Positions 4,654-12,626 of a stretch of 64,000 nucleotides of DNA are shown here, one piece after another. This stretch comes from Acididesulfobacillus acetoxydans (GTDB lineage: Bacteria > Bacillota > Desulfitobacteriia > Desulfitobacteriales > Desulfitobacteriaceae). The stretch covers positions 3,162,001-3,226,000 of the forward strand of contig NZ_LR746496.1 in NCBI RefSeq assembly GCF_902729405.1, given 5' to 3'. Positions within the stretch are counted from its first letter, which is position 1. Each line of letters opens with the position of its first letter. Under the pieces are notes generated by a model. That model saw only the letters and a program-made list of their open reading frames with translations, ran no database searches and was not told the origin of the DNA. Both the position numbers and the translations under genes were made by a program.

Positions 4654-5035
4654 TGCTCTATCCTCCACCCTGTTCATCAACACTCTAATTCTAACATACA
4701 GCGCCAAACATTCGATACCTAAATACCGCTGTCCTTTGCCCCCGCAGCCGGATAGGCCTTTCAAAGACTCATTAGGAAGGCCCCTGCCATCTGACGACCA
4801 TTACTGTAAATGTAACTGTGACCCGGGCCCGGCATTTCCTATCAGTATTTCCTCTGCTGAAATTAGCTTATCACAAACTACCCAGGCAAAACAGCCTAAC
4901 CTTATATGATCCGCACAGAACATCCGACGAGTGCAGCAATAATTCGACTTCCTCCCAAGTTGCATTATCATCCTGCTTGATTTCGCTGTACTTCTTTGAT
5001 AAGGGTACCCTGCTTAGCTTTATCGTGACAATAAG
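4654..5035. other. Intergenic stretch with no supported gene
   Basis: Between the SGNH hydrolase and the terminator near ptsH. I find no ORF with a convincing SD or family resemblance and no clear RNA element. It contains the upstream region of the SGNH hydrolase, including an in-frame extension that I judge untranslated. Confidence 0.5.
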
Positions 5036-5075
5036 AAACGGCCTCCTTACGCTGTTGCGTTAAGAAGCCGTTTTT
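5036..5075. terminator. Possible bidirectional rho-independent terminator
   Basis: An inverted repeat (AAACGGC...GCCGTTTTT with internal TTACGC/GCGTTAA pairing) followed by a T run on the plus strand and a weaker T-rich run on the minus strand. It lies about 65 bp past the ptsH stop, so it could end the minus-strand ptsH transcript. Confidence 0.6.
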
Positions 5076-5140
5076 GTGTATCTACAGCCGCTGTTTAAAC
5101 GAGCGCCGGTTTCACTGCCCTTCCGGCTTGGCCTTTTGGA

Positions 5141-5410
5141 TCAATTGGCCTCCTCTTGAGCCAGCTGCTCCGCAAACTGAGCAAACCTATCCAGAACCTG
5201 CTCCGCCTTATCGCCTTCGACGGTAACCTGAACCCTGTCGCCCTGGCTGATCCCGAGTCCGAGAATTGCCAAGAGACTTGTGGCGGGGGCAGATCTTTCC
5301 CCTTTGCTCAGCGTAATCTTCTCCGCGAAATCCTTGGCGAAAGCTACCAGCTTAGCCGCCGGACGCGCATGCAGTCCCGACCTGTTCTTTATAATGATTT
5401 CTCTTTCCAT
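5141..5410 (-). CDS. ptsH: Phosphocarrier protein HPr
   Basis: HPr, the phosphocarrier between Enzyme I and the sugar-specific EIIA of the PTS. It has 89 residues, normal for the family. The active-site histidine is His14 in NRSGLHARPAA. The regulatory serine is Ser45 in TSLLAILGLGI, the position phosphorylated by HPr kinase in Bacillota for CcpA-dependent catabolite repression. The gene starts 15 bp after the nagB stop and is the last gene of the nag arm. No ptsI lies in the window, so Enzyme I must be elsewhere. Confidence 0.97.
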   Translation of the reverse strand: MEREIIIKNRSGLHARPAAKLVAFAKDFAEKITLSKGERSAPATSLLAILGLGISQGDRVQVTVEGDKAEQVLDRFAQFAEQLAQEEAN

Positions 5411-5425
5411 GAGAAGTCGGCCCCC

Positions 5426-6139
5426 TTATAGTTTTATGTCGGTCAACACAGTCAGATCGCCGTGCAACTGCAAAATGCTCGCCGGTACCTCCGTACCCAC
5501 CGGGCCGTAGAGCACCTTACGCAAGATATCGGCTTTCGCATCCCCGCTGACCAACAAAAGAATGCGCCTAGCCTGCATGATTGTTCCGATACCCATTGTT
5601 ATGGCCTGACGCGGGACCTCGGCCTCCCTGTTAAAAAAACGCGCATTCGCCTGTATCGTAGCCGGGGTAAGGTCCACCACGTGCGTCCGCACCTCCAAGT
5701 TATGCGAGGGTTCGTTGAACCCAATGTGCCCGTTCAGCCCCAGGCCGAGCACCTGCACATCAATGCCCCCCGCACGCTCAATCGCCTGATCGTAGCGCCG
5801 GCACTCCGCGGCCAGGTCGGTCCGGTCACCTCTCGGGATTTCCGCCGCCTCAGGCGCCAGGTCGACTTTACCCCAAAAATGCTCCCGCATGAAGGCTGCG
5901 TAACTCTGGGGATGGCTGGGCAGCAAGCCCACATACTCGTCCAGATTAAATGCCCGTACCGCCCCAAAGCTCACCAAACCTTCCTGAAACAGCCGGACCA
6001 GATAGTGATACATCCCGACCGGAGTTCCGCCCGTGGGCAGCCCCAGCACGGAATCGGGCGACGTGAGAATTTCCCGGGCAACCCAACGCGCCGCCGTCTG
6101 CCCCAAAGCCTGATTGTCTCTAACCGTGATAATTTCCAC
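5426..6139 (-). CDS. nagB: Glucosamine-6-phosphate deaminase
   Basis: Converts glucosamine-6-phosphate to fructose-6-phosphate and ammonia. It has 237 residues, the short Bacillus-type NagB rather than the allosteric 266-residue enterobacterial form. Motifs: LGLPTGGTPVGMY (phosphate loop), FNLDEYVGL (catalytic Asp) and LGLGLNGHIGFNEP (His/Glu relay). An SD-like GGAGG lies upstream in CGAAGGAGGCGGCAG. It lies between nagA and ptsH in the same orientation, giving deacetylation, deamination and phosphotransfer in one transcript. Confidence 0.97.
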   Translation of the reverse strand: MEIITVRDNQALGQTAARWVAREILTSPDSVLGLPTGGTPVGMYHYLVRLFQEGLVSFGAVRAFNLDEYVGLLPSHPQSYAAFMREHFWGKVDLAPEAAEIPRGDRTDLAAECRRYDQAIERAGGIDVQVLGLGLNGHIGFNEPSHNLEVRTHVVDLTPATIQANARFFNREAEVPRQAITMGIGTIMQARRILLLVSGDAKADILRKVLYGPVGTEVPASILQLHGDLTVLTDIKL

Positions 6140-6289
6140 GTTCTGCCGCCTCCTTCGTTTTCATCCTCTCAGCCGTAAAGTCCGTCCGACATCTGCGCCG
6201 TCCGGCAACCCGTCTCTACACGCTCTGATCGAATACTTGCTCCGTCTTTACCCCTATCTTTCTCATCACACTCGCTGTCTCTCCTCAGT

Positions 6290-7507
6290 TTAATCGAACA
6301 CCGGCTCTCCGCGCAGCCAGACTTGACGGAGGTCAAATTCGGACGACAGGCGCAGGAAAGTGGCTTCTTTGCCCACTGACAGGCTTCCCAGCCTACTATC
6401 CACTCCCAACATCCTAGCCGGATTGAGAGTAGCTGCCCGCACGGCCAAATGCACGGGATAATGCGCCGCCCTCAAAACCCGCAAGCCCTGGAGCAAGGGA
6501 AAGGCACTGCCTGCGATAGTGCCGTCTGCCAAACGGGCCACTCCGCGCTGAACGAAGGTCCGCTGCCCCCCCAGTTCATACTCCCCATCCGGCATCCCCA
6601 CCGCACGGGTTCCATCCGACACCAGGACCACACTTTCGTCCGCCTTAAGACGCAATACCAGTTGAAGAATACTGGGGTGGATGTGAACGCCGTCCGCTAT
6701 GAGCTCAAGCGAGATTCTGTCATCCATCAGGGAGGCCGTCAAAAGACCGGGCTCCCGGTGATGAATTCCGGGCATGGCGTTGAAAGCGTGCGTTACCCGG
6801 GCCAGGCCCCAACCCGCAGCCTCCAGCATCTTGTCATAAGAAGCGGACGTGTGGCCGGCGGACGGAAGGATTCCGCCATCCCTGCAAGCCTCTATCAGTT
6901 CCCGGGCATCGGGCCGTTCAGGCGCTAAAGTTAGGATGCGCACCAGTCCGGGATAGTCATGCACAATCCGCCGCACAAAATCGGCCGCTCCGACCGAATC
7001 TTCCGGCCAAATTCCCTCTGCCGCCTGAGCTCCCTTATAATTCGGAGACAAAAACGGCCCTTCCAGGTGAACCCCCAGGAACTCCGCCCCCGCCGTCGCT
7101 CGGTCCTCTGCACGGCAGAAATTTTCCCCGGCACGGCCCGCCCCGGCGTTCGCCGCGAAACGCGCCCTCAATTCTGAGAGCACTTGCAGAATCTCCCCCG
7201 GAGCTGCCGACATGGTTGTCGCCAAAAAAGCGGTCGTGCCCTCTCGGAGGAGAGCGCCGCGAACAGCATCCAACGCGGCGGTGGTCCCGTCCATCGTATC
7301 AAAACCGCCGGCCCCGTGCACATGGGTATCGATTAAACCCGGAACCAAAAAGTCACCATTCAGATCCCACTCGACCTCGGGACTCGGGCCAGGTGCCCTC
7401 GAGCGCAGGACCCGGTCAATTTTCCCTCCGGAAAACCAAACCTCGCCGTCCGGGTAAACCCCATCCGGCAAAACCAATCGCGCACCACCGATTTTCATGT
7501 TCTTCAT
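6290..7507 (-). CDS. nagA: N-acetylglucosamine-6-phosphate deacetylase
   Basis: Removes the acetyl group of GlcNAc-6-P, giving glucosamine-6-P for NagB. It is an amidohydrolase-superfamily TIM barrel of 405 residues. Visible motifs: LIDTHVHGAGGFDTMDG (metal site), LGVHLEGPFLSPNYKGAQ, LPSAGHTSASYD, VTHAFNAMPGIHHREPG and VSDGTRAVGMPDGEYELGG. Residues 135-150 carry a small GAGRAGENFCRAEDRATAG insertion relative to typical NagA. The start is fixed by GGAGGCGCGGAA directly upstream. It is separated from nagB by 150 bp, with no terminator seen. Confidence 0.97.
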   Translation of the reverse strand: MKNMKIGGARLVLPDGVYPDGEVWFSGGKIDRVLRSRAPGPSPEVEWDLNGDFLVPGLIDTHVHGAGGFDTMDGTTAALDAVRGALLREGTTAFLATTMSAAPGEILQVLSELRARFAANAGAGRAGENFCRAEDRATAGAEFLGVHLEGPFLSPNYKGAQAAEGIWPEDSVGAADFVRRIVHDYPGLVRILTLAPERPDARELIEACRDGGILPSAGHTSASYDKMLEAAGWGLARVTHAFNAMPGIHHREPGLLTASLMDDRISLELIADGVHIHPSILQLVLRLKADESVVLVSDGTRAVGMPDGEYELGGQRTFVQRGVARLADGTIAGSAFPLLQGLRVLRAAHYPVHLAVRAATLNPARMLGVDSRLGSLSVGKEATFLRLSSEFDLRQVWLRGEPVFD

Positions 7508-7701
7508 TTCCGCGCCTCCGGCTCATCATAAACTCAACCTCTTAGGCAAATAGCGGGCTGTGCAAAAACTATCTGCAGACCGCCTGTATAGAACCGACCG
7601 TTCGTCCCCAGGCTATACCGAAACTTGCCGAAGTAATCCCGCGTCTCCTCCAAGGACATTAAGCAGAAGGCCTCTGCTTCAGCCAAAAATGCCCAAGCCG
7701 T

Positions 7702-8181
7702 CTACTTGAGCCGGTATCTGAGGACCACATCCCTGCCGGCTTCAACAACAGGTCGGTCACCCGGTCGCATCTCAGCTACTTTATCGGCATTGGATATGAC
7801 CACCGGAGTGACGAAAGACATTCCTTTCTCGGTCAAAGTCTTCCGCTGTATTTTGAGAACCGGATCTCCCGCTCGCAGCGTGACCCCCTCCTCGGCCAAT
7901 CTTTCAAAGCCCTCGCCATTAAGTGTGACGGTGTCCATGCCGACGTGAACAAGTATTTCCAAGCCATTGCCCAAAACCATGCCAAAAGCGTGATTTGTGC
8001 GGAAAATAAAGCTCAGCTTACCGTCTGCCGGAGCCAGGACGATGTCTCCCTCTGCCTCAATCGCGATCCCGTCTCCCGCCATTTTTTGGGCAAACACCGG
8101 GTCCGGTACCTGTGCGAGCTGCAAAAGCTTGCCGCTGACCGGAGCCACAAGTTCGTAAGGTTTCTTGAAGATATTCAACAT
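7702..8181 (-). CDS. PTS glucose-family EIIA component (stand-alone)
   Basis: A soluble EIIA of the glucose superfamily, accepting phosphate from HPr and passing it to an EIIB domain. About 159 residues. The phosphorylated histidine is in EILVHVGMDTV; the preceding His in FRTNHAFGMV is the second conserved one. I chose the ATG at 8181, because GGAGGA abuts the ATG two codons upstream. The plus-strand permease at 9812 has IIC and IIB domains but no IIA, so this is its natural partner. Expression is predicted to be controlled by GlcT through the leader at 8223-8272. Confidence 0.93.
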   Translation of the reverse strand: MLNIFKKPYELVAPVSGKLLQLAQVPDPVFAQKMAGDGIAIEAEGDIVLAPADGKLSFIFRTNHAFGMVLGNGLEILVHVGMDTVTLNGEGFERLAEEGVTLRAGDPVLKIQRKTLTEKGMSFVTPVVISNADKVAEMRPGDRPVVEAGRDVVLRYRLK

Positions 8182-8222
8182 TTTCATTCCTCCGTTGTAA
8201 TCCGTCGTGTATTACAAAAACT

Positions 8223-8272
8223 AAAAAGCACGAGTTTTTGCAACTCGTGCCTGTCTTAACAGTGACACGTCG
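8223..8272 (-). promoter_or_regulatory. GlcT-type RAT antiterminator overlapping a terminator, upstream of EIIA
   Basis: On the minus strand a RAT-like sequence, CGTGTCACTG followed by AGGCACGAGT, overlaps the 5' arm of a terminator hairpin (GCACGAGTT...AACTCGTGC, then TTTTTAG). The layout and the CGTGTYACTG/AGGCAYGAG blocks match what I recall of the ribonucleic antiterminator of the Bacillus ptsG leader bound by GlcT. The gene for a GlcT-like protein lies just upstream. Confidence 0.85.
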
Positions 8273-8280
8273 ATGCTTCT

Positions 8281-8309
8281 AGTATAGTAACCCCGGCACC
8301 ATCTGTCAA
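8281..8309 (-). promoter_or_regulatory. Sigma-A promoter of the EIIA-nagA-nagB-ptsH arm
   Basis: Minus-strand TTGACA (8304-8309) and TATACT (8281-8286) separated by exactly 17 bp. It is positioned to transcribe the RAT/terminator immediately downstream. Confidence 0.88.
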
Positions 8310-8344
8310 CACGCATAAAGAGCACCTGCTCATTTAGCTTATAG

Positions 8345-8414
8345 CTTATCCTCTCCTTGCTCCCGTAAATCCCTCTCCTTGCTCCCATAAATTCCTCTCC
8401 TTGCTCCCGCAAAT
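8345..8414. repeat. Three 22-bp tandem repeats between glcT and the EIIA promoter
   Basis: Three copies of a unit close to CTCTCCTTGCTCCCGTAAAT lie between the glcT stop codon and the EIIA promoter. Copies differ at one to three positions. No hairpin with a T tract is formed, so a terminator role is unlikely. Confidence 0.75.
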
Positions 8415-8417
8415 TTC

Positions 8418-9275
8418 TCATTTGCCCCCTACCCTTCTCTCGGCATCCCTCAGTTTTTCGATATGCACAGCAATGTACCCGACTTCATCGGGGACCACCT
8501 TCTTCCCAATCGTTTCTTCCAGCAGAACCGCTACTTTTTTGGCAATAGCGTAAGACTCTTTATATTCCCGTTTTATGCTTTTCAGCAGCCTGTTCTTGAT
8601 GAGCGCTCCCTTAAGAAGCCTCTCCACCGTGAAGCGGATGTGGGTCACGAAACGGGCATAATCCAACGAAGTCTTGTCAATCTCCAGACCCAGTTTATCC
8701 TCCACCAGCTCGCAGATGGAGTTTGCCAGAAAAGCGTATTTAATCGTGTTGGATAGTTTGCCCTGGTTACGCGCGGAGTGAATGTGCAGAGCAATGAACC
8801 CGATCTCGCCATCCGGGATCCGGACAGCGGTCCCCTTTTCTAAAATGGCGGCCGCTTTAAGCGCGAGGGCATATTCCCGGGGATAAAGTGTCTCAGTTTC
8901 GATGAGAAAAGGATTGACGATTTCGTCATGCTGCCTGAGCCTATGCAGGGCAAAAGCAATGTGATCCGTCAATGACACGTGGATCTTTTGATCAAGCTCT
9001 TCGTTGAGTTCACGGCTGAACATGAAAATGACCTCTTCACACAGGCCCACCGTCTTGGCATCCACTTGAGTGATAAGCTCCGAGAACTTCTGCCTGTTCT
9101 CGTCCTCCAGGGTAAAAACCTTCTCGATTAAGGCGCCGTCCTGGAAAGCATCGCCTGCACGCAGGCCGAAACCTATCCCTTTGCCCAGGAGGACTTTCTC
9201 CTGCTGACCGTCCGTAACCCAGAGGACGTTATTGTTAAACGCTTTATGCACCGTATATTTGTCTGGCATTCCCAT
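8418..9275 (-). CDS. glcT: GlcT-type PTS transcription antiterminator
   Basis: RNA-binding antiterminator of the BglG/SacY family that binds RAT RNA and prevents a leader terminator from forming. It has 285 residues: an N-terminal CAT RNA-binding domain (residues 3-60, YTVHKAFNNNVLWVTDG, LLGKGIGFG), PRD1 (about 65-170, with the DHIAFALHRL and HIHSARNQ histidines) and PRD2 (about 175-280, with FVTHIRFTVERL and VGYIAVHIEKL). PRD histidines are phosphorylated by PTS proteins in this family, linking activity to sugar flux. RAT-like leaders flank it on both sides: one upstream of EIIA, one upstream of the EIICB permease. Confidence 0.93.
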   Translation of the reverse strand: MGMPDKYTVHKAFNNNVLWVTDGQQEKVLLGKGIGFGLRAGDAFQDGALIEKVFTLEDENRQKFSELITQVDAKTVGLCEEVIFMFSRELNEELDQKIHVSLTDHIAFALHRLRQHDEIVNPFLIETETLYPREYALALKAAAILEKGTAVRIPDGEIGFIALHIHSARNQGKLSNTIKYAFLANSICELVEDKLGLEIDKTSLDYARFVTHIRFTVERLLKGALIKNRLLKSIKREYKESYAIAKKVAVLLEETIGKKVVPDEVGYIAVHIEKLRDAERRVGGK

Positions 9276-9378
9276 ATTCTTCCCACCGTTCTAATTCTCA
9301 AGGTTCGACTCGCAGGGTACCGGCCTGACTGAATCCGGAGCCTCTTGGTCAAAAGCAGGCCAAAACAGTCCGGTCCGG

Positions 9379-9407
9379 TTGACAGCCCCAAGGAATAAAG
9401 TTATAAT
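9379..9407 (+). promoter_or_regulatory. Consensus sigma-A promoter of the PTS permease
   Basis: A perfect TTGACA (9379-9384) and perfect TATAAT (9402-9407) with a 17-bp spacer. Transcription would start near 9414 and enter the RAT/terminator about 30 nt later. A fully consensus promoter fits control exercised mainly by premature termination. Confidence 0.92.
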
Positions 9408-9441
9408 GCAGACATAAGTCAATATTCTTTATAGCACACTA

Positions 9442-9512
9442 CAGCGTGTTACCGCAATGGGCATGAGCTGGGAAAGTTAAATTTTTCCCTGCTCGGCTCA
9501 TTTTGTTTTTTT
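9442..9512 (+). promoter_or_regulatory. GlcT-type RAT antiterminator and terminator upstream of nagE
   Basis: CAGCGTGTTACCG and GGGCATGAGC form a RAT-like element. Its 3' part is also the 5' arm of a long terminator (ATGAGC and TGGGAAA pairing with TTTCCC and GCTCAT at 9484-9501), followed by a T-rich run to 9512. The arrangement mirrors the minus-strand element at 8223-8272, so one GlcT could control both arms. Confidence 0.87.
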
Positions 9513-9811
9513 GCGCCTCAGTCTTTTTCCCTCGGGACCACTGCTTTTGCTTTCTTTTAGCACCGCTATTTTCTTTTAGCACCGTCGCTTTCTTTTAGTA
9601 CCGCTGTTTTTGCTTCTGCAAATTATTCTTCTTTTCAAATTATTTTTTTCACCTTGGTTTTTTTTCCCGACAGTTCTCTTTTTTCACACCAATGTTCTTT
9701 TCTCCGCCCTGTCTCCGTTCGTGTCTGTTTTTCCGCTGTTATTAATTTGGTTGGCGTACGAAACCGAATTAATATAAGTCATGATTATGATGAAAAATGG
9801 GAGGGAGATTT
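9513..9811 (+). other. Long nagE leader with degenerate TTTCTTTTAGCACCG repeats
   Basis: About 300 bp between the terminator and the permease start. It is pyrimidine-rich and holds three copies of a unit near TTTCTTTTAGCACCG at about 9551-9608. No ORF or structured element was recognised. It would be part of the untranslated leader once antitermination has occurred. Confidence 0.6.
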
Positions 9812-11206
9812 ATGGCTAACAAAGCTTTGGCAAACGCTCAAAGACTGGGCAAAGCGTTAATGACCCCTGTCGCCGTATTGCCTGCGGCCGCCCTGCTGCT
9901 TCGGCTCGGACAACCCGATGTCTTCAATCTTCCCTGGATGAGTGAAGCCGGGAACGCCATTTTCGGTAATTTGGCCCTAATCTTTGCCATAGGCATCGCG
10001 ATTGGTCTGGCCGAAGACAACAATGGCGTCGCGGGGCTCGCCGCCACCGTCGGGTACTTTGTCCTGACAAAAGTGGCCGTGACTTTTAACAAGACCATCG
10101 ACATGGGGGTCTTAGCCGGTATCTTGGTAGGCATTCTGTCAGGTTACCTCTACAATCGTTTTAAAGCGACTAAGTTGCCGGACTTTCTCGGCTTCTTCGG
10201 GGGAAAACGTTTTGTTCCGATCCTAACCTCTCTGACAACCTTGATTCTGGGTGTGATCATGGGCTACGTTTGGCCCCTGGTGCAAAACGGAATCAACGCC
10301 GTCGGCAATACCATCGCCTCTTCCGGCACCATCGGGGCCTTCTTCTTCGGACTCTTGAACCGTCTGCTCCTGCCTTTTGGCCTTCATCACGTTATTAATT
10401 CCCTCGTTTGGTTCCAATTTGGCACCTTTACGACACCGGCCGGCAAAGTCGTGACCGGGGATCTCACCCGCTTTTTTGCGCACGATCCCACGGCCGGAAC
10501 CTTCATGACCGGATTCTTCCCCATCATGATGTTTGGCCTCCCAGCGGCCGCTCTGGCCATGATTACAACCGCCAAAAAGGAAAACCGCAAAGCTGTCACA
10601 GGAATGCTGCTCGGTATTGCCTTTACTTCCTTCCTCACTGGCATTACGGAACCCATCGAGTTTTCTTTCATGTTCCTGGCGCCGGGGCTCTACCTCATTC
10701 ACGCCTTTCTCACCGGCACCTCCCTTGCTTTGTGCACGGCCTTGGGGATCCACGCCGGCTTCGGCTTCTCAGCGGGTCTGATCGACTACGTACTGAATTG
10801 GGGCATCTCGACCAAGCCCTATCTGTTGATTCCGATCGGCTTACTCTACGGTGCGATTTACTATTTCCTCTTTGTCTTCTTTATTAAAAAATTCGACTTG
10901 CCCACTCCCGGACGCGTAGATGACGAAGAATCCGTGACCCTGTCAGGATTGGGCAACAGCGAACTCGCCGGCCGGGCCGGGGACATCCTGGCAGCCATCG
11001 GTGACAAGGAAAACATTAACGTCATCGATGCCTGTGTCACTCGGATCAGGCTGACCGTCAAGGATCCAAATAAAATTGACGAGAACCGCCTCAAGCAAAT
11101 CGGCGCCACGGGTATCATGAAAATGGGCGGCAATAACTTCCAGATCGTCGTCGGCACGGTCGCCGATCCACTGGTGACCCACATCAAATCCCTCATGAAA
11201 AAGTAG
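9812..11206 (+). CDS. nagE: PTS EIICB permease, probably N-acetylglucosamine-specific
   Basis: Membrane permease that imports and phosphorylates an amino sugar. The ATG at 9812 follows GGGAGGGAGA. The 464 residues comprise an EIIC domain (residues about 1-360, with multiple TM segments, GLHHVINSLVWFQFG and GITEPIEFSFMF, the substrate-site Glu) and a C-terminal EIIB domain (about 385-464) with the phospho-cysteine in NVIDACVTRIRLTV. It lacks the EIIA domain found in many NagE/PtsG proteins; a separate EIIA is encoded at 7702-8181. GlcNAc specificity is inferred from nagA and nagB; glucose is possible because the regulation is GlcT-like. Confidence 0.88.
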   Translation: MANKALANAQRLGKALMTPVAVLPAAALLLRLGQPDVFNLPWMSEAGNAIFGNLALIFAIGIAIGLAEDNNGVAGLAATVGYFVLTKVAVTFNKTIDMGVLAGILVGILSGYLYNRFKATKLPDFLGFFGGKRFVPILTSLTTLILGVIMGYVWPLVQNGINAVGNTIASSGTIGAFFFGLLNRLLLPFGLHHVINSLVWFQFGTFTTPAGKVVTGDLTRFFAHDPTAGTFMTGFFPIMMFGLPAAALAMITTAKKENRKAVTGMLLGIAFTSFLTGITEPIEFSFMFLAPGLYLIHAFLTGTSLALCTALGIHAGFGFSAGLIDYVLNWGISTKPYLLIPIGLLYGAIYYFLFVFFIKKFDLPTPGRVDDEESVTLSGLGNSELAGRAGDILAAIGDKENINVIDACVTRIRLTVKDPNKIDENRLKQIGATGIMKMGGNNFQIVVGTVADPLVTHIKSLMKK

Positions 11207-11323
11207 AGCCCGCACCTAATGACCCGCCTCATAATCCCAACCACCTAGGGCATGACACATCGGCCCAGTTCAACGCCGCGCACGCGACGGCCATACATTC
11301 ACTTTAGAAGGGAGAAGAACAAT

Positions 11324-12253
11324 ATGGCAAAAAGAGTACTCGATTGTTCGGCCTCGGACTTTCGCCACATGTCCGCGCAAGAGATCCTCGAAGGAATAGC
11401 CGCCGCCGAGGGCCGGACACTCGTAGCCGAAATTATCGGTGCCCTTCAGCCTGTCCTGATGTCGGTCAGCAACGCGGAGCTGGCCGCCGCCTTCGGGGCC
11501 GACATTCTTCTGTTAAACTTCTTTGATGTTTATGCCCCCGTCTTTCAGGGCTTGCCCGCGACTTCGCGTAATGAAGACTCGGTGATTCAGAACCTAGAAA
11601 GGCTCACCGGCCGCCTTATCGGGATTAACCTCGAACCGGTAGATCCGGACCAAGAAACTCTGGGGGAGATTCGTCCGCTCCCTCCGGGACGGCTGGCCAG
11701 CGCTGACACAGCTCGCGAAGCCTGCCGCCAGGGCACCCGCTTGATCATGCTCACGGGCAACCCCGGCAGCGGCGTCTCCAATCGGGCTATCTCCCGCTCC
11801 CTGCGGGCAATCCGGGACGCTTTGGGCAGGAAAATTATCCTGGGCGCGGGAAAGATGCACGCCGCCGGCTCGCGTCACGAAGCTGGAGCCAACCTGATTA
11901 ACCACGAGGACGTCGCGGAATTCGTCGCGGCCGGTGCCGACATCATCCTCCTGCCGGCCCCGGGCACCGTCCCCGGCCTTACAGTTGAATACGCGAAGTC
12001 TCTGGTCGACCGGGCGCACAGCCTGGGGGCGCTGACGCTGACAGTCATTGGCACCTCCCAGGAAGGTGCCGATCCGCAGACTCTGCGTCAAATTGCCTTA
12101 ATGTGTAAAATGACAGGCACCGACTTGCATCACCTGGGAGACGCCGGAGCTTTTTTGGGCATAGCCACCCCGGAAAACATCATGGCTTACTCCATCACGA
12201 TAAGAGGAAAGAGACACACCTACGCGCGCATGGCCCGCTCCGTCAACCGCTGA
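11324..12253 (+). CDS. PTS-associated DUF7916-type protein
   Basis: A 309-residue cytoplasmic protein. The ATG at 11324 follows GAAGGGAGAAG. It resembles the DUF7916 family, often labelled PEP phosphonomutase or haloacid dehalogenase-like and commonly encoded beside PTS genes. Features: LDCSASDFRHMSAQEI near the start, EGRTLVAEIIG, FGADILLLNFFDVY, IGINLEPVDP, MLTGNPGSGVSN, and AGADIILLPAPGTVPG. The alternating beta/alpha pattern suggests a TIM barrel. It lies 117 bp after the permease and probably shares its transcript. The enzymatic activity is unknown; a role in processing the imported sugar phosphate is only a guess from context. Confidence 0.65.
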   Translation: MAKRVLDCSASDFRHMSAQEILEGIAAAEGRTLVAEIIGALQPVLMSVSNAELAAAFGADILLLNFFDVYAPVFQGLPATSRNEDSVIQNLERLTGRLIGINLEPVDPDQETLGEIRPLPPGRLASADTAREACRQGTRLIMLTGNPGSGVSNRAISRSLRAIRDALGRKIILGAGKMHAAGSRHEAGANLINHEDVAEFVAAGADIILLPAPGTVPGLTVEYAKSLVDRAHSLGALTLTVIGTSQEGADPQTLRQIALMCKMTGTDLHHLGDAGAFLGIATPENIMAYSITIRGKRHTYARMARSVNR

Positions 12254-12346
12254 CTGCTGCCCCGCACGCTCCCGACGAAGGGACCGATTCCGGACTTTTT
12301 GCACCCCGCTCCGTCAACCGTTGACTGCCTGCCCCGCACGCTCCCG
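12236..12346 (+). repeat. Imperfect duplication of the gene's 3' end
   Basis: The last codons and the following bases (12239-12274) recur at 12310-12346, about 71 bp downstream: TCCGTCAACCGYTGACTG followed by CCCCGCACGCTCCCG. Only the second copy is followed by the matching inverted arm, so only it forms a terminator. Confidence 0.75.
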
Positions 12347-12360
12347 GCGTGCGGGGCTTT
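12331..12360 (+). terminator. Rho-independent terminator of the nagE transcript
   Basis: GCCCCGCACG, a short loop, then CGTGCGGGGC and TTT. A very stable stem placed 80 bp after the stop codon at 12253. Confidence 0.85.
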
Positions 12361-12626
12361 CCTATGGCAAAAGGTTTTCCTTAGCAATTTGATTTTCTTG
12401 GGGAACCGGAATGCGTGCCTGCCGGAAACCGCCGTGCATGAAACCGTTCCTTTTAGGTACTCTATAGCTGGGACAACACTGGCTTGGGTACCCTATAGCT
12501 GAGAAAACACCAGCGGTCCCAGCCCCCAAATCCTCAATTACATTCCGCTCATGCATTACAGTCACGAAAGAGATCGAATCTGACCCTGACGCAGATCTAA
12601 ATCCTGATCAGAAGAGGTGTTGCACA
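12361..12626. other. Intergenic stretch with a 24-bp direct repeat
   Basis: Contains two imperfect copies (12456-12479 and 12487-12510) of a unit beginning GGTACYCTATAGCTG, 31 bp apart. No promoter of consensus quality and no ORF with family resemblance was seen, other than the SD of the following small gene (AGAGGTG at about 12613). Confidence 0.5.

Follow-up and report, generated by a model that had tools for sequence, protein, structure and literature searches.

In the bglG-bglF operon of Escherichia coli, the antiterminator gene is flanked by two RAT/terminators within a single transcript. In Bacillus subtilis, GlcT is governed by an EIIB-mediated scheme of PRD phosphorylation that leaves antitermination off without sugar (PMC12445079), and the genes nagAB and nagP are controlled by the GntR repressor NagR (PMC3648570). 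In Enterococcus faecalis, NagY controls its own transcript and the EIICBA protein NagE—the system being described as NagY/nagE/hylA—and has 26 direct targets, 23 of them with a RAT (PMC9981650, PMC12502629). From these descriptions, antiterminators for GlcNAc (NagY itself) and antiterminators with multiple targets are already known; among the titles and opening abstract lines listed for open-licence papers, none concerned a two-RAT GlcNAc locus under the control of GlcT, and an earlier clostridial description is possible.

The locus considered here lies in a 64,000-nucleotide stretch of DNA (hereafter, the window; contig positions 3162001-3226000) from the single-contig, 4.52 Mb genome of Acididesulfobacillus acetoxydans, which has been described as having 4.52 Mb, 53.7% G+C, and a close relationship to Peptococcaceae bacterium CEB3 (PMC8982180). 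This sister strain (hereafter, CEB3) is its genus mate. In window order, the minus strand carries HPr-nagB-nagA-EIIA and then the glcT-like gene, and the plus strand EIICB and a DUF7916 gene (Table 1), such that the glcT-like gene shares the strand of the EIIA arm and the EIICB arm alone diverges from it. The open reading frame of EIICB opens at 9797, with its probable start behind a ribosome site at 9812, and that of the DUF7916 gene, whose membership in the EIICB arm is uncertain, runs from 11252, with a probable start at 11324.

Table 1. Features of the locus, in window coordinates, with model scores in bits
Feature	Position	Strand	Remarks
HPr-family protein	5141..5410	-	His14 and Ser45 kept; one of seven in the genome
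nagB, glucosamine-6-phosphate deaminase	5426..6139	-	TIGR00502 284.5 vs. cut-off 236.9
nagA, GlcNAc-6-phosphate deacetylase	6290..7507	-	TIGR00221 281.1 vs. cut-off 225.65
Weak hairpin, terminator-like, at the stop codon of EIIA	7691..7711	-	-11.2 kcal/mol; CEB3 counterpart -3.6, does not form
PTS EIIA, glucose superfamily	7702..8187	-	PF00358 150.4 bits; TIGR00830 136.4 vs. cut-off 97.5
Intrinsic terminator A with T tract	8213..8252	-	Stem 8252-8226, -15.8 kcal/mol, z -5.7; tract end by eye
RAT A, EIIA leader (ACGTG...GAGT class)	8243..8270	-	Model R1, 34.3 bits
Promoter A, TTGACA-N17-TATACT	8281..8309	-	11/12 sigma-A consensus; CEB3 hexamers the same or nearly the same
glcT-like antiterminator gene	8418..9275	-	PF03123 (CAT_RBD) and two PF00874 (PRD) stretches
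Promoter B, TTGACA-N17-TATAAT	9379..9407	+	12/12 sigma-A consensus; identical hexamers in CEB3
RAT B, EIICB leader (GCGTG...GAGC class)	9444..9468	+	Model R1, 29.5 bits
Intrinsic terminator B with T tract	9459..9512	+	9459-9499 folds at -22.9 kcal/mol, z -5.0; tract end by eye
11-bp hairpin or dyad, EIICB 5' UTR	9742..9772	+	Retained in CEB3; occurs once in the genome
EIICB, GlcNAc type by model	9812..11206	+	TIGR01998 585.1 vs. cut-off 553.2
DUF7916 protein, 3' of EIICB	11324..12253	+	PF25509 410.2 bits

The glcT-like gene is flanked by two RAT/terminator leaders. A preliminary description of this DNA had placed near-perfect sigma-A promoters at both, which the consensus matches of promoters A and B bear out; sites with at most one mismatch and spacers of 16–18 number six in the 64 kb window, compared to none or one in each of ten Markov simulations. 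The RATs are 25–28 nt long, with RAT A starting a few nucleotides past the expected transcription start and RAT B about 30 nt past its own. It had also been noticed that RAT-like elements share bases with the terminators, and indeed both are RATs of the GlcT type that overlap their own terminators, by 9–10 nt for RAT A and by 10 nt for RAT B. Folded alone, RAT A reaches −8.0 kcal/mol and RAT B −4.5 kcal/mol, such that each terminator is the more stable structure; for this reason, the terminators should win without a stabilising protein, and the default state should be off. Relative to shuffled sequences, RAT A alone is only slightly more stable (z −1.67) and RAT B alone no more stable (z +0.44). 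The promoter scan found no promoter for the glcT-like gene itself, and scanning found no minus-strand terminator between that gene and promoter A, so that, with the switch off, transcripts of glcT may likewise stop at terminator A. Searches of the whole window against Rfam at the gathering threshold returned one tRNA as the sole match, and at E ≤ 10 the region 8100–9900 returned four matches, all far below gathering scores, with no family for either leader.

The intergenic DNA around the leaders also contains repeats. Between the stop codon of the glcT-like gene and promoter A lies a 22-nt tandem repeat (8349–8419, 3.2 copies) whose minus-strand copies contain the ribosome-site-like GGAGAGG. 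Between terminator B and EIICB lies a T/C-rich stretch of about 220 nt (approximately 9507–9727) that includes a 19-nt tandem repeat (9551–9610, 3.2 copies); this stretch is missing from CEB3, whose leader is shorter by that length.

Both RATs stand alone in the genome by the searches that we used. The pattern CGTGTYACN{6,16}RGGCAYGAG, derived from the two window RATs themselves, matched twice in 4.52 Mb—at RAT A and RAT B—and its reversed control did not match. We also built a covariance model (R1) on 18 different RATs, among them both of those in the window; it recovered RAT A and RAT B at E-values of 2e-4 and 3e-3 in a genome scan that scored 150 of 2186 first-look candidates, a recovery that is partly by construction because both are in the model; the same 150 of 2186 candidates yielded no third RAT at E ≤ 10. 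Over the 18 sequences, 88.3% of the cells of the RAT stem were paired, with 22 double-change cells and a covariation score of 0.335, values reached by none of 500 shuffles (control scores were 0.185 for shuffled sequences and at most 0.185 for slid structures). Two further counts stayed within the range of the shuffles: pairs in which both sides changed numbered 5 (vs. 4.0, with 137 of 500 shuffles reaching 5), and additional pair types numbered 12 (vs. 12.0, with 338 of 500 reaching 12). A loose text pattern for RATs, tried over 19 loci, gave many chance-looking matches and was replaced by R1; the RAT-like element that a text pattern picked out at locus L067 presumably resembles the LicT type, and we take the RAT of B. 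subtilis to be of the same class as those in the window.

Related loci preserve this arrangement to varying degrees. CEB3 retains both RATs and the order HPr-nagB-nagA-EIIA-glcT-EIICB, its promoters and RATs being nearly unchanged in otherwise diverged intergenic DNA and its terminators still identifiable despite minor indels and sequence changes. Across 20 named GlcT-like loci (L047–L066, with the CEB3 locus L046 standing for L047), two RATs were found in eight (CEB3, L052, L053, L054, L055, L056, L060, and L061), one RAT in another eight (L051, L057, L058, L062, L063, L064, L065, and L066), and no R1 match in four (L048, L049, L050, and L059), with some loci ending at contig ends. All 24 R1 matches outside the window, from 25 related or control loci, lie 42–361 nt upstream of EIIA, EIICB, or nagB; five of these 24 (24.4–29.6 bits) are absent from the model. 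Class and position go together—ten of ten ACGTG-type RATs outside the window precede EIIA, 11 GCGTG-type RATs precede EIICB (nine), nagB (one), or EIIA (one), and the remaining three (ACATG, TCGTG, and CCGTG) precede EIICB—and the window fits this rule, with its ACGTG-type RAT A before EIIA and its GCGTG-type RAT B before EIICB. Five more distant loci (L067–L071) had no R1 match at E ≤ 1. Twelve weak matches in other CAT_RBD loci (14.2–20.4 bits, E 0.013–0.49), perhaps RATs of the LicT type, were excluded from the counts. Gene order differs in Caloramator australicus (L060), where it reads glcT, RAT, nagB, RAT, EIICB, DUF7916, EIIA, HPr; the DUF7916 gene thus follows EIICB there, and CEB3 carries a 27-residue remnant of it (positions 10556–10636 of the CEB3 locus). 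At the scale of the phylum, a survey of 398 genomes with strict filters and 18 candidates scored per listed genome found an R1 match (E ≤ 0.02) in 48, 12 of which had two or more; 47 of the 48 also encoded a CAT_RBD protein, compared to 67 of 398 overall (hypergeometric P about 7e-44, uncorrected for kinship).

The antiterminator that had been proposed to lie between the leaders is indeed encoded there. Its CAT RNA-binding domain matches PF03123 at 62.8 bits (cut-off 25), which places it in the BglG/SacY family, and in its two PRDs (PF00874) the histidines H105, H164, H212, and H271 are invariant across seven aligned proteins. The name GlcT, given to it earlier, holds in that GlcT is the nearest model (the LicT model scores 231.5), but the equivalog for the glucose PTS antiterminator, NF047357, is missed by 4.9 bits (315.1 vs. 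a cut-off of 320), and “GlcT-like” is the safer term. The same cut-off is missed by the proteins of CEB3 (317) and C. australicus (308.2) and passed by those of Clostridium rectalis L052 (337.6) and Evansella L065 (397.2); for the L067 protein, it is the LicT model that is passed (369.4). A quick tree of 67 rows was made with SH-aLRT support only and no bootstrap, leaving out 18 locus names that were repeats of one gene or stood for proteins that were short, fused, or distant. It places the window protein and that of CEB3 in a 20-row clade (SH-aLRT 100) of Clostridium, Caloramator, Pelosinus, and Lucifera proteins. This clade includes the NF047357-passing protein of L052 and is separate from the Evansella GlcT group and the LicT-type L067, and on this tree the phylogenetic place of the window protein is with GlcT rather than LicT. 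Its best match in the PDB is 3rio, “PtsGHI operon antiterminator” (E 3.5e-41).

Within the genome, the product of the glcT-like gene is the sole CAT_RBD match. Among 80 close genomes, only the source genome and CEB3 encode a CAT_RBD protein, and an EIICB at 98–100% identity is likewise confined to this pair; three more close genomes encode a 52–53% identical EIICB in a 669-aa frame (E ≤ 1e-60). This restricted distribution makes acquisition from a Clostridium-like donor likely, though the G+C content of the cluster (0.549) equals that of the window (0.545).

We propose that the locus is a PTS-controlled antitermination switch of the BglG/SacY/GlcT type that acts on two targets, EIIA(-nagA-nagB-HPr) and EIICB, and assign this reading a probability of about 0.82. 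It builds on the promoters, RATs, terminators, and overlaps described above, on the single antiterminator, and on conservation and covariation at the sequence level. Given that the only CAT-domain antiterminator of the genome lies between two GlcT-type RATs, one protein switching both arms would be the simplest reading. Following the scheme described for GlcT of B. subtilis (PMC12445079), when sugar is absent PRD1 of the GlcT-like protein would receive phosphate from the phosphorylated EIIB of the linked EIICB, which would keep the protein inactive, and RNA polymerase from either promoter would stop at the leader terminator. During sugar uptake, EIIB would instead hand its phosphate to the sugar, and the GlcT-like protein would be dephosphorylated, dimerise, and bind RAT A and RAT B, blocking both terminators—such that EIIA(-nagA-nagB-HPr) and EIICB would be switched on together. 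A tentative extension, on which we place limited weight, is that the two RAT classes, with their compensating pairs (ACGTG...AGT and GCGTG...AGC), are old and separately kept, and are read at different strength by one antiterminator, setting a fixed order or ratio in which the catabolic/EIIA/HPr arm and the transporter arm are induced, with the cluster HPr feeding back on PRD phosphorylation; the lineage of the window and CEB3 would probably have acquired this GlcNAc-dedicated GlcT branch from Clostridium-like bacteria.

Rival readings overlap in mechanism with this explanation, and their odds are not exclusive. One concerns the signal. The earlier suggestion that the switch is linked to amino-sugar genes agrees with the assignment of EIICB, which passes the GlcNAc model TIGR01998, as expected of a GlcNAc-specific EIICB, and fails the glucose models (TIGR02002, 500 vs. 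591.8; NF008301, 443.7 vs. 647), and with the position of nagA and nagB after EIIA. For these reasons, GlcNAc would be the most likely signal sugar, with glucose or glucosamine possibly acting as signals too. If the switch were instead one for glucose, or dual for glucose and GlcNAc, EIICB would carry glucose, glucose would be the signal, and nagA and nagB would simply ride along. Several lines of evidence lean this way: the window EIICB has the top PF02378 score among the genome's five matches (258.6 bits vs. 54.5–171.4, the 171.4-bit match belonging to the lactose/cellobiose family), the described strain grows on glucose (PMC8982180), and the clostridial PTS cbe4532/cbe4533 complemented both glucose and GlcNAc mutants of E. 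coli (PMC4706839). Moreover, the sister GlcT loci of Caloramator are split, with an EIICB of glucose type in L061 (TIGR02002, 799.4) and of GlcNAc type in L060 (TIGR01998, 573.8 vs. 553.2); for the L052 EIICB, TIGR01998 is the best model, at a score below its cut-off (543.1). Against this stand the model results for the window EIICB itself and the nag genes behind EIIA, and we consider a glucose switch unlikely.

A second alternative is that antitermination governs only part of the locus, with EIIA and EIICB responding and nagA-nagB-HPr uncoupled by a hairpin or a promoter of their own. In the proposed switch, these three genes would be co-transcribed with EIIA, as we infer from their arrangement. 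The hairpin at 7711–7691, at −11.2 kcal/mol and followed by ATTTTTGG, together with the gap of 194 nt before nagA, could uncouple them in the window, and the Clostridium loci L052 and L056 have their nagA some 3.5 kb downstream of the EIIA-side RAT rather than directly after EIIA. In CEB3, on the other hand, the EIIA-nagA gap is only 33 nt and the hairpin's counterpart folds at only −3.6 kcal/mol, no minus-strand promoter of at least 9/12 was found within the window's EIIA-nagA gap, and in C. australicus a RAT stands directly before nagB; partial control thus seems rather improbable to us. The CEB3 NagA (positions 5721–7070 of the CEB3 locus) carries, close to its N terminus, a short-repeat insert (PSAEVPGSSTG-like) that is absent from the window NagA.

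One element of the preliminary description found no support, namely that the last gene of this arm encodes the general HPr. HPr-family genes number seven in the genome, and the window has no EI match, all four EI N-terminal-domain matches of the genome lying elsewhere. The cluster HPr is 28–41% identical to the five copies aligned out of the six others and 31% identical to the HPr of two Caloramator loci; the sixth copy (L002) reads identical to the L001 copy. Identical HPr proteins occur at genome positions 848268 and 1630368, each behind nearly identical dehydrogenase genes, with two equal-scoring EIIC matches about 6 kb upstream of these copies, and the region seems duplicated. At genome position 1699265, an EI N-terminal domain lies in a frame of 264 aa, compared to 573–586 aa for the three other EI matches, and is perhaps truncated.

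That the RATs are functionless relics or chance hairpins, with a DNA-binding repressor (acting, for example, at the 9742–9772 dyad) or catabolite repression setting expression instead, is highly improbable: although the dyad is conserved in CEB3 and promoter B has a dre-like site with two mismatches close upstream, at 9346, the RATs are conserved, covarying, and unique genome-wide, the dyad occurs at one genome place with up to three mismatches allowed, and one-mismatch cre-like sites in 4900–12500 lie only at 10993 and 12438, the two-mismatch ones being inside glcT and nagA. For catabolite repression or NagR, these cre- and dre-like sites were the candidates that the region offered. The single occurrence of the dyad led us to reject it as a multi-site operator; it is more likely an RNA hairpin, and the two base changes that separate the window from CEB3 keep its RNA pairing via G-U.

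The two-target switch that we favour suggests that a GlcT-type system, familiar from B. subtilis and its uptake of glucose, tracks the EIICB with which it is paired—the GlcNAc type in the window, CEB3, and C. australicus, and the glucose type in Caloramator fervidus. Its two conserved RAT classes offer a natural test of one antiterminator reading two RNA targets, and on this view these acidophilic sulfate reducers would be expected to regulate their use of GlcNAc, whose source may be cell-wall debris.

Compared to described systems, the locus combines familiar parts in a different layout. In E. coli bglG, both RAT/terminators are on one transcript, whereas in the window they are on two diverging transcripts. 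With the B. subtilis GlcT/ptsGHI system it shares an RNA-binding domain with two PRDs, an antiterminator gene beside an EII gene, and a RAT overlapping a terminator (PMC12445079); however, B. subtilis has one RAT, before ptsG, and a glucose signal, whereas in the window there are two RATs, the EIICB is of GlcNAc type, EIIA is separate, and nagA and nagB are present. NagY of E. faecalis, too, is an antiterminator of the BglG/SacY family; it serves a GlcNAc PTS and has several targets with a RAT (PMC9981650, PMC12502629). The printed NagY RAT differs by eye from the window RATs in the lower stem, and, unlike the NagY system, the window's genome has two RATs, with nagA and nagB behind one of them and no RAT found before glcT. 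Closest in plan are the loci of Clostridium, Caloramator, and Pelosinus (L052–L056, L060, and L061), which, like the window, have two RATs along with a GlcT-like gene, one RAT ahead of EIIA (or nagB) and the other ahead of EIICB. Because these relatives share both the two-RAT plan and the amino-sugar genes, neither is peculiar to the window; what sets it apart from them is the position of glcT between the two leaders and the placement of nagA-nagB-HPr behind EIIA.
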